Positions 10,331-42,708 of a stretch of 42,708 bases of DNA are shown one piece after another (within the stretch, counting starts at the first letter, position 1; each line of letters starts with the position of its first letter). Source of the DNA: a virus; IMG/VR virus record IMGVR_UViG_3300036846_000868, positions 1-42,708 of that record; one strand, 5' to 3'. The notes below the pieces were generated by a model. The model worked only from the letters and a program-made list of their open reading frames with translations, was not told the DNA's origin and did not search any database. The position numbers and the translations under genes are program-made.

Positions 10331-10355
10331 TAACACCTTAAGTGAACACCTTAAG
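10331..10355. repeat. attP left-arm integrase sites (two direct repeats)
   Basis: TAACACCTTAAG at 10331-10342 and GAACACCTTAAG at 10344-10355 are direct repeats 13 bases apart. The same word recurs on the far side of the attachment core, as expected for arm-type binding sites of a tyrosine integrase. Confidence 0.65.
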
Positions 10356-10466
10356 GGTCGCGTAGGGGCGTTTTCTGACGGATTGTGACGCGTAGTGGCG
10401 GGAGACGTCCGGACCGAAAACGCGCGTTTTCGGCCCGTTTCTATTCAGTTTTCGAGCAATTGGGGC

Positions 10467-10510
10467 TGGTGTCCCCAACGGGATTCGAACCCGTGTTTTA
10501 GCCTTGAAAG
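10467..10510 (-). other. attP: attP core: 3' half of a tRNA-Glu(TTC) gene
   Basis: On the minus strand this reads, from the anticodon loop to the tail: loop CTTTCAA (anticodon TTC), stem half GGCTA, variable AAAC, T-arm ACGGG-TTCGAAT-CCCGT, acceptor half TGGGGAC, discriminator A, CCA. The matching 5' half is absent: the base before the loop does not continue the anticodon stem and no GTCCCCA acceptor half lies upstream. A half tRNA beside an integrase gene is the usual form of a phage attachment site, so integration should rebuild a host tRNA-Glu. Confidence 0.85.
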
Positions 10511-10531
10511 CGAAAACACACTGGCAGCTAA

Positions 10532-11770
10532 CTAACTCACCTGTCGAGACTTAGCGGTTTCTAACACCTTAGTGCGCATCCTTAAGGTGTTCGGTTTGAC
10601 CGTCACCGGCTTGACCAACCGGGCGCGCGCCTGTCGGCGCCGGGCAGCGAGCGAGGCCGAGAACGCCTCGGACGCCGCGGCGTCCACGTCGGCGTGCGCG
10701 CCCCGCGTATAGCGCGCCGTCATCGGCGAGCCTTCGGCATGGAGCCCGGCGCGCGCGACGGTCGCCTCGTCGGCGGTGAGCCGATAGAGCTCCGTCAGGT
10801 AGCTGTGACGCAGGTCGTAGGTATGCACGTCGGTGAGCCCGATGCTCGTCGCGGCGCGCTTGAACGAGACGTTCAGCGACGACACGGCGAAGGATCCGTA
10901 GGCGTCGGCGGCGTCGAACGCGCGCCACCAGACGAGGGCGTCCTCGTTCAACCGGAGCACCCGGCCGCTCGCGCCCCGTCCCTTGAAGCGCGGCCCGACG
11001 CTCAGCGTCCCCTCGCGCAGCGACAGGTCGATCCGCTTCACCTTCGCCACCATCCCCGGCGGGAGCCCGGTATACGCGATGACGCCCGCGCGCAGCTTCG
11101 AGAGATTGCGCTCGCGCGGCGCCCCCCGCTTGGTGTCGCGATAGTCGGGCATCGCCGCGAGCACGCGTTCGATGCGCAGGTAGTCGATGGCGCGAGGTGC
11201 TGCGTCCTCGGGGCGCGGCGGCAGCTTGGCGCCGTTGACCGGATTGGTCATGGTCGGCGCCATCTCGGCGAAGAAGGATTTGAGGCTCGTGCGCCGTTTG
11301 CGAATCGTCTCGATGCCGAGGATGCCGGACGTGTTGACGGGGGGCCGGCCCCGGCGCGGCCCCGGCGTCTCGGGCGACGGCGGCACGGGTTCCAGGCGCC
11401 ACCGATTCAGCACGCGCACGATGGCGTCGGTCGTAATCGCGCGCAGCGGCAGGTCGCGCCCGAGCGCCTGTACCCACAACTCGAGATGCGCCATCTTCTG
11501 CGTGATCGTCGGCTGGGCGGCGTGGCGTACGAGGTAGGTCGCCGCCAGATCCGCGAACGAGCCATCGACGATATCTGGGTCGCGCCCGCTGCGGCGTTTG
11601 ACTTCATCGCGGCGCCACTGCTGCATCTCGTCGTCGCTCGCCAGCGCGGAGAACGTCTCCCCGTACTGCACGCCGTCGACCTTCACGTACGCGTACTGTT
11701 TCTTGCCCTGCCAGCGAATCCCGATACGTGATCCGCGTCGTCGTCGTCGTTTCGTCGTCGTCTCGTCCAT
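10532..11770 (-). CDS. int: Tyrosine-recombinase integrase
   Basis: A 412-residue site-specific recombinase. Start ATG 11770 is preferred over a longer reading because AGGAG lies 6 bases upstream and the upstream repressor frame ends there. A basic N-terminus leads into an AP2/SAM-like arm-binding region and a core-binding domain (residues about 70-180). The catalytic domain has Lys263 (RFKGRG), YDLRHS with Arg321, LHAEG with His344 and the nucleophile Tyr354 (TARYTRG). The usual first arginine (TGLR) is a proline here (TGLPPG, Pro237) and the HxxR histidine is a tyrosine. Its stop lies 21 bases from the tRNA-derived attP core, the standard int-attP pairing. Confidence 0.93.
   Translation of the reverse strand: MDETTTKRRRRRGSRIGIRWQGKKQYAYVKVDGVQYGETFSALASDDEMQQWRRDEVKRRSGRDPDIVDGSFADLAATYLVRHAAQPTITQKMAHLELWVQALGRDLPLRAITTDAIVRVLNRWRLEPVPPSPETPGPRRGRPPVNTSGILGIETIRKRRTSLKSFFAEMAPTMTNPVNGAKLPPRPEDAAPRAIDYLRIERVLAAMPDYRDTKRGAPRERNLSKLRAGVIAYTGLPPGMVAKVKRIDLSLREGTLSVGPRFKGRGASGRVLRLNEDALVWWRAFDAADAYGSFAVSSLNVSFKRAATSIGLTDVHTYDLRHSYLTELYRLTADEATVARAGLHAEGSPMTARYTRGAHADVDAAASEAFSASLAARRRQARARLVKPVTVKPNTLRMRTKVLETAKSRQVS
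10562..10592. repeat. attP right-arm integrase sites (inverted pair)
   Basis: TAACACCTTAG at 10562-10572 and CCTTAAGGTGTTC at 10580-10592 form an inverted pair of the same word found at 10331-10355. They lie inside the 3' end of the integrase gene, on the other side of the core, completing a P-core-P' layout. Confidence 0.6.
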
Positions 11771-11818
11771 CTGGTCTCCTATGTGAGTTTGTCGAGTTTG
11801 GTGAGGCATTCCTGAAAT

Positions 11819-12391
11819 TTATCGATGACCGCTTTGCATAGCTCGGGGTGCGTCAGGATCAGCATTTCGAAGTGGTTCGCGAGGGGGGTCCACGTCCGCA
11901 GCAAGTTGTTCGACGACTTCACCGAGCGTGGCACGCACAATCTGCCGCACGCGACGGTCGAGCTCCGGGTCGGTGCTGTCGTAGGCGGCGAAGACGCGGT
12001 GTCGGTCGCCGGTTTGGACAAGCCGTTGTTCTCCTTGCTTCGCTTGAACGACAACACCGCTCTCGTCATGAAGCCTCCTGTGTAGCGCCGTCACCGCGCC
12101 GCCGTCCTGTTGAAATTCTTGGAACCACTTTTCGAGCAATTCGAGGCGCACCATCACCGACGGTTGATCAGTGGTCTCGACCCCAGAAAAAAATTCCACG
12201 AGTGATATTCCGAGCCCCTCGATGGCGCGCACGAATGTGTCAACCGACGGTCCCCCTTTCGTGTTGGTGAGCAGTTTGGAAATGGCTGTTTGTCCCGAGA
12301 GATCGCCCCGGCGGGCGACTTCCGTCTGCGTCAGGCCCGACTTTCTTAACAGCAACCGATAATGATCCCGTAGTGTCTGCCAGTTTTTCAT
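11819..12391 (-). CDS. XRE-family lysogeny repressor (CI-like), probable frameshift near the 3' end
   Basis: A 190-residue protein with an N-terminal helix-turn-helix (residues about 12-68: LRKSGLTQTEVARRGDLSG, SKLLTNTKGG, IEGLGISLVEFF), the shape of a phage repressor. The middle is helical and charged and no S24 self-cleaving peptidase domain is seen. After residue about 170 the frame turns into arginine/proline/aspartate-rich sequence, while removing one C from the C6 run at 11882-11887 gives an ordinary helical ending (ANHFEMLILTHPELCK...TKLDKLT) that stops at 11779, 8 bases before the integrase ATG. So the true end may be 11779. It is transcribed divergently from the Cro-like gene and its own -10 overlaps the operator at 12401-12418. 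Confidence 0.85.
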   Translation of the reverse strand: MKNWQTLRDHYRLLLRKSGLTQTEVARRGDLSGQTAISKLLTNTKGGPSVDTFVRAIEGLGISLVEFFSGVETTDQPSVMVRLELLEKWFQEFQQDGGAVTALHRRLHDESGVVVQAKQGEQRLVQTGDRHRVFAAYDSTDPELDRRVRQIVRATLGEVVEQLAADVDPPREPLRNADPDAPRAMQSGHR

Positions 12392-14879: not shown

Positions 14880-15223
14880 AGCTGCTCGAACATCCGTTGT
14901 GGCCGGCGATCCGTCCGTACGTCCGCGTCGAGACCTACGACCGCGACGGCGGCCACGCGCATCCGCGCCACCGGATTGAGCTCGATGACGTGGGGCGGCT
15001 GCGTCCGGTTCTCCTCGCTATCGAGGTGGAGTGCGCCGCGCAGTGTGGACGACTGATTCACCCGATCCGTGCCCGCTGGGGTGGGCGCGGGGGGTTGTTC
15101 GTCTCCGTCTCCTGCACGCTCGACGTGAACGTCGGCTGCGCGCGCGGGCCCCGGGCCCATGCCGAGTACGAACGCATCATCGAGGCGTGTGGCACGCGAC
15201 CGTTTCCACCGCTGTTCGCGTGA
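14876..15223 (+). CDS. Small cysteine-containing protein, unknown
   Basis: A 115-residue protein (start ATG 14876, ATGA overlap). It has CAAQCGRLIHPIRAR, then a strand FVSVSCTLDVNVGC; four spaced cysteines could bind metal. The C-terminus is helical (HAEYERIIEACG). No family recognised. It is the last gene of the densely packed first part of the rightward operon, followed by a 162-base gap. Confidence 0.6.
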   Translation: MKLLEHPLWPAIRPYVRVETYDRDGGHAHPRHRIELDDVGRLRPVLLAIEVECAAQCGRLIHPIRARWGGRGGLFVSVSCTLDVNVGCARGPRAHAEYERIIEACGTRPFPPLFA

Positions 15224-15385
15224 TGCCTGCGAGTCAAAACGTGTCAACAAAAAACCGTCACCCGGCATCGGCGCTCAAACAACACCATCGGCTTCCACCC
15301 GACCTCAAACGGGCGTCACCGCAGCAGTCGTGTCGGTCGCGAACTGAGGGGCGAGTGGAGAATGCTCTCGAAGGGAGCGAGAGCT

Positions 15386-15682
15386 ATGACACAGCAGCAG
15401 TACGAGAACTACTTGGCGTCGGACCGGTGGCAGATCATCGCGACGAAGGCAAAAGAGCGGGCGCACCACCAGTGCGCGCTGTGCTGGCGGCGACGCAGGC
15501 TCGAAGTACATCATCGGACGTACGAGCGCCTCGGCCACGAATGGGTGACCGACTTGGTAGTTCTGTGCTGGTGGTGCCACCGACTTCATCACGGCACCCT
15601 GAAGTCCAGCCGTCGCTGCAGCGACCAACAATTGCTGCTTCCATTTACACCGCTGATTCCGACGGGGCCCGACCTGAATTGA
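15386..15682 (+). CDS. HNH endonuclease
   Basis: A 98-residue HNH nuclease. ATG 15386 is preferred over one 24 bases upstream because a GGGAG site sits at suitable distance. It has CALC at residues 30-33, LEVHHRTY (His42/43) and LVVLCWWCHRLHH (Cys61, Cys64, His65, His68), the zinc-stabilised beta-beta-alpha-metal fold. It is preceded by a non-coding gap, and codon use in this and the next gene (more AGG, AGA, ATA, AAG) is less GC-biased than in neighbours. That suggests later acquisition, perhaps as a homing or mobile nuclease. Confidence 0.85.
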   Translation: MTQQQYENYLASDRWQIIATKAKERAHHQCALCWRRRRLEVHHRTYERLGHEWVTDLVVLCWWCHRLHHGTLKSSRRCSDQQLLLPFTPLIPTGPDLN

Positions 15683-15690
15683 GGTGTGCC

Positions 15691-16122
15691 ATGCGGTTGC
15701 GGTCCATCATGACCGTCGCGCAGGCGGCGAGGTACGTCGGCATAGGTGAGAAAGCACTCCGGCGAGAGATAGCGAAGGGCGTTCTCAAATCGCGGGCGGT
15801 GGGAGACAAGGGCCAGCGTGTGATCACACGCAGTCAATTGGAAGCGTGGGCGAGTGCGGACGCTGATATTGCCAAGAGCGTGATCGAGTCGTGGCCGTAC
15901 AAGCGGCTAGAGCTTTTGCTGCTGGGCCACGGGCTATCTGTGGAGTGGGATGGTAACCGACCAACTCTGCTCGGCGCACCCGATCTGGAAACGCTTCAAG
16001 AGCGCGAGCGAAAGGCGCGGAACGCCGAACGGATCGGAGTCTTTCTCTTGCAATTCATGATCGACAGAGGCTTGACCACTCGCGAGGAAGTGTCTGCCGA
16101 GTTTCGGGCGTGGAGAGCATGA
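15691..16122 (+). CDS. Helix-turn-helix DNA-binding protein
   Basis: A 143-residue protein with a GAGGTG site before ATG 15691. Residues about 7-55 (MTVAQAARYVGIGEKALRREIAKG, then VITRSQLEAW) form an excisionase/HTH_17-type DNA-binding domain. The rest is helical with a YKRLELLLLGHGLSVEWD segment and a C-terminal LQFMIDRGLTTREEV helix. It shares the atypical codon use of the HNH gene, so the two may have arrived together. Overlaps the ATPase gene by 4 bases. Confidence 0.75.
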   Translation: MRLRSIMTVAQAARYVGIGEKALRREIAKGVLKSRAVGDKGQRVITRSQLEAWASADADIAKSVIESWPYKRLELLLLGHGLSVEWDGNRPTLLGAPDLETLQERERKARNAERIGVFLLQFMIDRGLTTREEVSAEFRAWRA

Positions 16123-26228: not shown

Positions 26229-26739
26229 CGGTCAGCCGATCAGCCGCGTCGAATGGGTGCCGGTAGACTCGCTCGCCGCCAACGACTACAACCCGAACAT
26301 GCAGCCGCCTCCGGAGTTTCGACTCCTGAAGATCAGCCTGCTCGAAGACGGGTGGACGCAGCCCATCGTCGTCTTCGATGACGGGAGCGGCGCGAAGCCC
26401 ATCATCGTCGACGGCGAGCATCGCTGGCGCGTCGTCCGCGAAGACGCCGATATCCGCGCGCGGACCGAGGGCCTCGTGCCCATCGTTCGAATCGTCAAGG
26501 AGCGGCGACACTTGATGATGTCCACGATTCGGCACAACCGCGCGCGCGGCGAACACACCGTCAAGCAGATGGCCGGCATCGTGCGCGAGCTCCTCGAAGC
26601 CGGGGAAGCGGTGGACGATATCTGCTTCCTGATGCAGATGGAGGTGGAAGAGGTCGAGCGGCTCGCCGACAGCGCCGGGATGCCGACGCGCGTCACCCGG
26701 GGGCTCAGCGACTACTCGAAAGGATGGGAACCGCGATGA
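26218..26739 (+). CDS. ibrB-like: IbrB-like ParB-domain protein
   Basis: A 173-residue protein with AAGGAG-type site before ATG 26218, overlapping IbrA by 11 bases. VEWVPVDSLAANDYNPN, SLLEDGWTQPIVV and IIVDGEHRWRVV (residues 11-72) form a compact ParB-type domain; IbrB proteins have this same order. HNRARGEHTVKQMAGIVREL then gives a helix-turn-helix-like part. Together with IbrA it is the second PAPS-like plus ParB-like pair in the operon. Confidence 0.87.
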   Translation: MGTDGQPISRVEWVPVDSLAANDYNPNMQPPPEFRLLKISLLEDGWTQPIVVFDDGSGAKPIIVDGEHRWRVVREDADIRARTEGLVPIVRIVKERRHLMMSTIRHNRARGEHTVKQMAGIVRELLEAGEAVDDICFLMQMEVEEVERLADSAGMPTRVTRGLSDYSKGWEPR

Positions 26740-28145
26740 ATCCCGACCACGTACGGGCCGTTCGCACCGCCGCGCAGTGCGTGACGCGCGATCTGTCGCT
26801 GGCGCTCATCGAGCAGCAGACACAGGAGGCCATTACTGCGACCGGGCGCGGGCTCGATCTGGCCGACGCCGACTTGTCGAATCTGGATTGTCGCGGGTTC
26901 AACCTGTCCTACGCCACGCTCAACCGCGCCGCGCTGCACGGCAGCAAGTTCGACGAGGCGGACCTGACCGCCGCGACGCTCATTTGTCCGGGGCTCGAGC
27001 GGACCTCCTTTCGGCGGGCGAACCTGCGCGGCGTCTACGTCCACGCGCTGGCCGCGCAAGTCTGCAACTTCGATGAGGCGAATCTCGATGCGATGCTCGA
27101 TGGCACTGGCTCGCTCTTCCACGGGTGCTCGATGAAAGGTACGTCGCTCGTCGGCGCGCGGCTGGCCGGCGCGACGTTCTATCAGTGCGACCTGAGCCGC
27201 GCGCATCTGTCGGGCGCGACGCTCCAAGGTGCCACGATCAACGAGTGCGTAATGACGAGCGCCGATCTGGATCGCACGGACGTCTCGCAGCTCACGATCA
27301 CGAAGTGCGTCATGACGTCCGTCTCGCTGGCGTGCGCGGCTGGCGACGGACTCGTCATCCAGCGACCGACAGCGGCGACGAATCTGACACTGACCGGCGC
27401 GTCGCTGCCCGGTCTTCGACTCGCCCATGTACGCACGCGCGGCCTCGTGGCGCTCGACCTCGCGGCCACCAACCTCGACATGGAGGATTGCTGGTGTAGA
27501 GATGCGACGTTTCATCGCGCGTCCCTCGGTAACGCGCGTATGGTGCATTGCACGTTCGAGACAACAACCTTCGAGAACGCCAAGCTAACGGGCGCGCAAC
27601 TGCGTAGCTGCGTCTTCGCGCGCGTCACGTTTGAGCGCGCCGACGGCGAGAATCTCAGCGCGGTCGAGACGTCGATGATTGCAGCGAATCTGACTAATTT
27701 CGCGGGACGCGCGGCCGTCTTCCGCGACTGCGACCTCACCGACGCGAACCTCTCGGGCGCGTATCTATACCGCGCGATGCTGACCGGCGATCCGCCCGCC
27801 GCCATGTCGCTCGTGCGCGCCTCGCTCAACGGCGCGAATCTCGTGCAGGCGTATATCGCCGCCGACTGTAGCCACGGCGATTGGCGCGGCGCGAAGTGCG
27901 CGTACGCGCGGCTGAATCAGGCGACGTTTCGGCGCGCGGACTTGTCCGGGGCGGGACTCTACGAGGCCTCGCTCGTTAAGACCAACTTCACCGACGCGCG
28001 CCTCGTGGGGGTACAGCCGCCGTTTTTTGCCGACCGCTGCGCCGGACTCGAAGCGGCGCTCTACGTGGTCGGCGCGCAGGCCGCGCTCGACTGTGTGCAG
28101 CGGGGGAAGGCGGTGACGAGTGTGGGAAGCTCGGGGTCGACGTGA
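26736..28145 (+). CDS. Pentapeptide-repeat protein
   Basis: A 469-residue protein built largely of A(D/N)LXX-type repeats (ADLSNLDCRGFNLSYATLNR, ANLRGVYVHA, ADLSGAGLYEASLVKTNF and many more), which fold as a right-handed quadrilateral beta-helix. Start ATG 26736 overlaps the IbrB stop as ATGA. Family members such as Qnr and MfpA mimic DNA and protect or inhibit gyrase; many others have no known role. Two or three less regular stretches interrupt the coil. Being the last gene of the PAPS/ParB operon, it may shield DNA or a topoisomerase, but no partner is shown by sequence. Confidence 0.88.
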   Translation: MNPDHVRAVRTAAQCVTRDLSLALIEQQTQEAITATGRGLDLADADLSNLDCRGFNLSYATLNRAALHGSKFDEADLTAATLICPGLERTSFRRANLRGVYVHALAAQVCNFDEANLDAMLDGTGSLFHGCSMKGTSLVGARLAGATFYQCDLSRAHLSGATLQGATINECVMTSADLDRTDVSQLTITKCVMTSVSLACAAGDGLVIQRPTAATNLTLTGASLPGLRLAHVRTRGLVALDLAATNLDMEDCWCRDATFHRASLGNARMVHCTFETTTFENAKLTGAQLRSCVFARVTFERADGENLSAVETSMIAANLTNFAGRAAVFRDCDLTDANLSGAYLYRAMLTGDPPAAMSLVRASLNGANLVQAYIAADCSHGDWRGAKCAYARLNQATFRRADLSGAGLYEASLVKTNFTDARLVGVQPPFFADRCAGLEAALYVVGAQAALDCVQRGKAVTSVGSSGST

Positions 28146-42382: not shown

Positions 42383-42708
42383 ATGGCGCAACTAGTCAAA
42401 CATCTCAAGAACAGCACCATCGCGGACGGGCCCGATCCAAATCAGGTTAACCCGTCGGACTGGAATGCGGCCCACGTGTTCTCGGGCGGCGCGCTCGGCG
42501 GATTGCTGATGCGCGACACCGGGGACGCGACGTACGGCGCGTCGTGGCTCGCGAGCGTCGCGGCGGGCAGCGTGTTGATCTCGAATGGCGTCGGCGCGGC
42601 GCCGTCGTGGGCCTCGTCGCTCACCCTGACCGGAAGTCTGACGGTCGGCGGCGCGCTCGCCTTCAACGCGGCGAATCCGGTCGCGCATACCATCTACGGT
42701 ACCGGGAC
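42383..42708 (+). CDS. Tail fibre, N-terminal part (continues at position 2)
   Basis: ATG 42383 opens MAQLVKHLKNSTIADGPDPN and QVNPSDWNAAHVFSGG, the usual N-terminal phage-attachment start of tail fibres (the NPSDWNAxHxFSG phrase). The frame stays open to the end of the window and matches the frame of 2-883, with a 144-base overlap between the two ends. The complete protein is 354 residues. It begins 4 bases after the preceding stop. Confidence 0.85.
   Translation, partial: MAQLVKHLKNSTIADGPDPNQVNPSDWNAAHVFSGGALGGLLMRDTGDATYGASWLASVAAGSVLISNGVGAAPSWASSLTLTGSLTVGGALAFNAANPVAHTIYGTG
42565..42708. repeat. Terminal direct repeat, right copy
   Basis: Matches 1-144 except for C at 42691 in place of G at 127. 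See the left copy. The synonymous difference suggests real sequence variation in the sampled population or a base-call error. Confidence 0.93.

Follow-up and report, generated by a model that had tools for sequence, protein, structure and literature searches.

Sites that attach at a tRNA anticodon loop and carry a 3' tDNA fragment form a large known class (Islander subsite A, PMC4383910), and mycobacteriophage attPs have a common core of 30-45 bp that contains the 3' half of a tRNA and is flanked by pairs of putative arm-type sites (PMC10865867). The locus considered here resembles both. Like the members of subsite A, it has a 3' fragment that runs from the anticodon loop to the end of the tRNA, an adjoining tyrosine integrase and an attP of about 250 bp; it differs in that the host appears to be an uncultured order of Acidobacteriota and in that its discriminator base is unlike that of the hosts. 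With the mycobacteriophage sites it shares the tRNA 3'-half core and the paired putative arm sites, although its arm words and slots are specific to this phage's own family. As with heterobivalent integrases of the lambda type, apparent arm-type sites lie on both sides of the core and are distinct from the putative core sites. In short, this is an ordinary kind of attP, a fresh case of the anticodon-loop tRNA class; less ordinary are arm slots that stay fixed as their words change, and the integrase family to which they belong.

We are highly confident that the site serves a temperate tailed phage as its attP, for integration at the anticodon loop of tRNA-Glu(TTC) by means of an integrase acting on paired arms. 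The anatomy of the site, its match to host genes and the arm geometry conserved among relatives can be read directly, and the fold of the integrase is seen in a structural model; binding of the arm words by the integrase, the place of strand cleavage and the integration of this phage at this gene are inferred. In the proposed mechanism, the N-terminal domain of the integrase would hold the arms at the paired sites while the enzyme would cleave the core where it encodes the anticodon loop of tRNA-Glu(TTC). At one junction, recombination would rebuild a complete tRNA from the host 5' half and the phage 3' half; the 3' half native to the host would end up at the other, beside int. The features are as follows, in coordinates of the window (the whole stretch analysed, 42,708 nucleotides):

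1 to 144, no strand: terminal repeat, 143 of 144 bases identical to 42565-42708
10331 to 10342, minus strand: putative distal arm site of P', CTTAAGGTGTTA, slot about +169
10344 to 10355, minus strand: putative proximal arm site of P', CTTAAGGTGTTC, slot about +156
10414 to 10433, no strand: perfect 20-base palindrome CCGAAAACGCGCGTTTTCGG, between the core and the P' arm
10467 to 10510, minus strand: core, the 3' half of tRNA-Glu(TTC) from loop base C32 (10510) to CCA (10467)
10493 to 10519, minus strand: dyad GTGTTTT-13-AAAACAC centred on the anticodon loop, read from the sequence
10532 to 11809, minus strand: tyrosine integrase (int), 425 aa, with a three-strand N-terminal domain (31-54) and core-binding and catalytic domains
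10561 to 10573, minus strand: putative proximal arm site of P, ACTAAGGTGTTAG, an imperfect word, inside int
(slot about -61)
10579 to 10592, no strand: putative distal arm site of P, inside int; the exact inverted word GAACACCTTAAGG on the minus strand overlaps the usual slot at -73
11819 to 12391, minus strand: HTH_3 protein, likely the phage repressor, upstream of int

An earlier note on this DNA had placed a 3' half of tRNA-Glu(TTC), without a 5' half, 21 bases from the int stop, and these positions are confirmed: CTTTCAAGGCTAAAACACGGGTTCGAATCCCGTTGGGGACACCA is the minus-strand sequence of 10467-10510, a gap of 21 bases separates it from the int stop, which ends at 10532, and ARAGORN finds no complete tRNA in the window. 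The note's 44-base core identical to the host has to be shortened, however. Exact identity with host genes covers 40 bases (10471-10510) and is followed, after a single mismatch, by CCA; the mismatch falls at tRNA position 73 (10470), with A in the phage against G in all host matches. At the other end, identity begins at the anticodon-loop base C32, both in this phage and in 13 relatives. In several of these relatives it stops at G73 and no CCA follows, so that these attPs can do without an encoded CCA. The dyad centred on the loop, only the right half of which is common to the host tRNA, is a candidate pair of core-binding sites. Relatives have in common an A+T-rich stretch and a GGGCCTGAA-like motif at about +55 to +90 from the core, and in the attP of L053 the core is preceded by some 10 bases retained from the host 5' half (GGACGTGGCC). 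The interval between core and P', with the palindrome here and the A+T-rich stretch and motif in relatives, may possibly accommodate a DNA-bending protein.

That the core could point to a host was borne out, as far as a likely host is concerned. When a 39-base pattern of the tRNA half was run against the genome collection it hit seven contigs, each with a complete tRNA-Glu(TTC), six of them from Acidobacteriota and one labelled Deltaproteobacteria; the exact 39-base core had no match in IMG/VR. In Vicinamibacterales, the order to which one of the seven belongs, 38 of 162 genomes match the core with at most two mismatches, all with G73. The search proposed earlier, for bacterial tRNA-Glu genes identical over 10467-10510, does recover host genes, albeit with 40 identical bases rather than 44. 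The matches make Vicinamibacterales (Acidobacteriota) the likely host, and this soil phage probably inserts into the glutamate-tRNA gene of an uncultured member of that phylum.

In the genomes searched, no lysogen turned up in which this integrase lies in an element bounded by both tRNA-Glu junctions. One genome (G515), in which an integrated tRNA-Glu element was sought, contained only a half tRNA, with a flank that matched no other tRNA-Glu flank, and none of 396 genomes had the usual pair of arm words after a complete tRNA-Glu; note that the latter pattern is blind to this phage's own word. Two further candidates were set aside. In G437, a related integrase lies next to a half tRNA-Arg that has the core plus 140 bp in common with a complete tRNA-Arg, an ambiguous case that we do not take as proof. 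A single provirus record in IMG/VR carries a copy of the tRNA-Glu core at both sampled places of the same contig (L150 at the contig start, L154 at 14898), the first of them immediately followed by a different integrase; the integrase is distant and the layout another one, and the record provides no evidence for this phage's family.

A displaced half tRNA beside int is also how an attR looks, which raises the alternative that the window is a prophage end in which the half tRNA and everything to the left of it are host DNA. One locus in a Vicinamibacterales genome (L109) does have an int and a half tRNA and no P' repeats. Here, by contrast, repeats beyond the core carry the same word as P, the ends of the record repeat and a tail gene spans them, and A73 is foreign to the hosts, all of which makes this alternative extremely improbable. 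As its letters read, the record is a complete phage genome, circularly closed or redundant, and the window encodes the phage families portal, terminase, protease, capsid, head-tail adaptor and RusA. Because of the terminal repeat, the tail-fibre frame that runs across the record ends and the phage structural genes, both arms belong to the phage and the site is internal, an attP rather than the end of a prophage. The window further holds, upstream of the terminase, a 473-aa pentapeptide-repeat protein (26724-28145), and at 15031-16122 a 363-aa frame that weakly matches PHROG 66 (E 2.5e-6; excisionase and transcriptional regulator); distant from int, this frame is a candidate Xis.

As for the arms, a word in four copies had been claimed. 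Three copies of AACACCTTAAG are indeed exact, at 10332-10342(+), 10345-10355(+) and 10581-10591(-), but the fourth, at 10563-10573, is imperfect (AACACCTTAGT). With up to two mismatches allowed, 1.77 matches are expected in the whole 42.7 kb and seven are found, four of them within the 262-base site. In the proposed arrangement, a direct pair on the left and an inverted pair on the right, the exact inverted copy is the one at 10581-10591; the arm sites of relatives are pairs of direct repeats. The P' pair and the proximal P site agree with the relatives' slots; the distal P word is inverted, unlike theirs. Owing to the palindromic CTTAAG, the distal P slot also holds a degenerate direct reading, TTAAGGATG, that overlaps the inverted word; as far as the sequence goes, either of them could be the site in use.

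Relatives put these slots into perspective. A first search returned L009 and L010, with 50% and 40% identity in the alignment and the same half tRNA after int; an alignment search extended this to 61 viral loci, and an order-level genome search added more distant ones. The P-core-P' layout read from this one phage recurs: in 13 related phages a homologous integrase has a tRNA-Glu 3' half nearby, and most of these phages show repeat pairs in the same slots. We brought the 14 tRNA-Glu attPs, this phage included, into one orientation and counted positions from C32. Most relatives have direct-repeat pairs near -73/-60 (spacing 13 bp) and +158/+170 (spacing 12 bp). Across 16 loci (the 14 attPs plus L105 and L109), the offset pair (-73,-60) is alike in 12, and the best pairs are all arm slots, while nearly all of the roughly 259,000 offset pairs are alike in one locus or in none. 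The words themselves vary from phage to phage, from AAAGTTACCAA, AAGTTGTCCC and GAACCTGCCCG through to AAGGTGTTAG in this phage, with positions that barely shift.

L009 has 320 bases between the end of int and the core, yet its P' pair occupies the usual slots; its P pair is weak. The cassette is inverted relative to int in L061 and L051, both of which keep the P' slots and the former the P slots as well; L059 and L087 likewise have an inverted tRNA-Glu cassette, with weaker repeats. On these comparisons, the arm slots follow the core and not the int gene. Relatives that carry halves of tRNA-Gly or tRNA-Arg also have pairs 12-13 bp apart, and in several of the tRNA-Arg ones the P' pair is closer to the core.

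Might the AACACCTTAAG words instead be operators for a repressor or excisionase? They are short and partly palindromic (CTTAAG), and an HTH_3 gene lies upstream of int. However, phages that differ in their words keep the slots at set distances from the core, even where int is far away or inverted, and the distance between words follows the N-terminal domain of the integrase. We consider operators improbable and integrase arm sites the better reading. The correlation of arm-word distance with N-terminal-domain distance (partial r 0.34, permutation p 0.007, n=12 phages) is only suggestive of co-variation between the two.

The integrase itself is likely to have the lambda fold with an arm-binding N-terminal domain. 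An AlphaFold2 model (from 52 sequences; mean pLDDT 87.6) has an N-terminus of three strands and a helix, and with VIA-align the top solved structure is lambda Int (Z 18), with which the modelled protein would share arm-binding, core-binding and catalytic domains; it differs from lambda Int in its low identity (15-16%), a displaced Arg I and an attB that is a tRNA gene. Aligned to XerD, the Arg of TGLR is replaced by Pro250 (TGLP), leaving the protein without the canonical Arg I of that motif, and the first His by Tyr331; R334, H357 and Y367 are present. Arg I is absent from this integrase and 60 relatives, and R274 and K276 are invariant in all 61. R274 sits two residues before the conserved Lys K276 (R-x-K); the invariance of the two suggests a displaced catalytic arginine, with R274 as the candidate substitute. 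In a quick tree the Arg I-less sequences cluster and two changes are needed; they may have a single origin. An apparently perfect swap between Arg I and a hairpin Arg (Fisher p 2e-19) was discarded as dependent on the alignment and on common ancestry. When the alignment is anchored on the Lys, a clade of ten sequences that keep Arg I also has R-x-K, and we consequently claim only the invariance of R274 and K276 among the 61 Arg-less sequences.

Along with the negative lysogen search, four points count against the attP reading: A73 against the hosts' G73, the missing canonical Arg I, the imperfect fourth arm copy and the inverted distal P copy. The first three would also fit an inactive integrase and an attP that is a relic. 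Yet the reading frame of the integrase is open, the 61 sequences that lack Arg I are diverse and all keep R274 and K276, and most of the close Arg I-less relatives have intact attPs. We judge a relic to be very improbable and retain the view of a working attP.

A first catalytic Arg away from its usual place has precedents. In the CTnDOT integrase a different arginine fills this role, while the IntDes integrases, reported only from Desulfovibrio and without a function, have a shifted Arg I and Tyr for the first His (PMC8138268). This integrase resembles both subgroups in the first respect and, by the traits described, IntDes in its Tyr331, a likeness that does not imply kinship. It has no protein match at E 1e-5 among 50,697 GenBank phage records, and a full-text literature search for attP sites of Acidobacteria prophages returned only a general genomic-island database. 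We tentatively suggest, at somewhat less than even confidence, that the integrases of these soil phages form a large and undescribed family, marked by a displaced catalytic Arg, arm slots fixed almost to the base, and words that diverge with the N-terminal domain. If true, this would suggest a role for IntDes-type recombinases and offer a natural series from which arm-site specificity might be read. The results link this uncultured soil phage, together with some 15-20 relatives that make up its family, to Vicinamibacterales, and the family forms a comparison set in which arm-site sequence varies at fixed position, so that site choice by the N-terminal domain could become readable from sequence.

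Related integrases that keep Arg I are found in L139, L143 and L140, each with a complete tRNA-Arg gene after int; in L139 and L143 arm-like pairs flank the tRNA-Arg on either side, and in L140 they occur only towards int.
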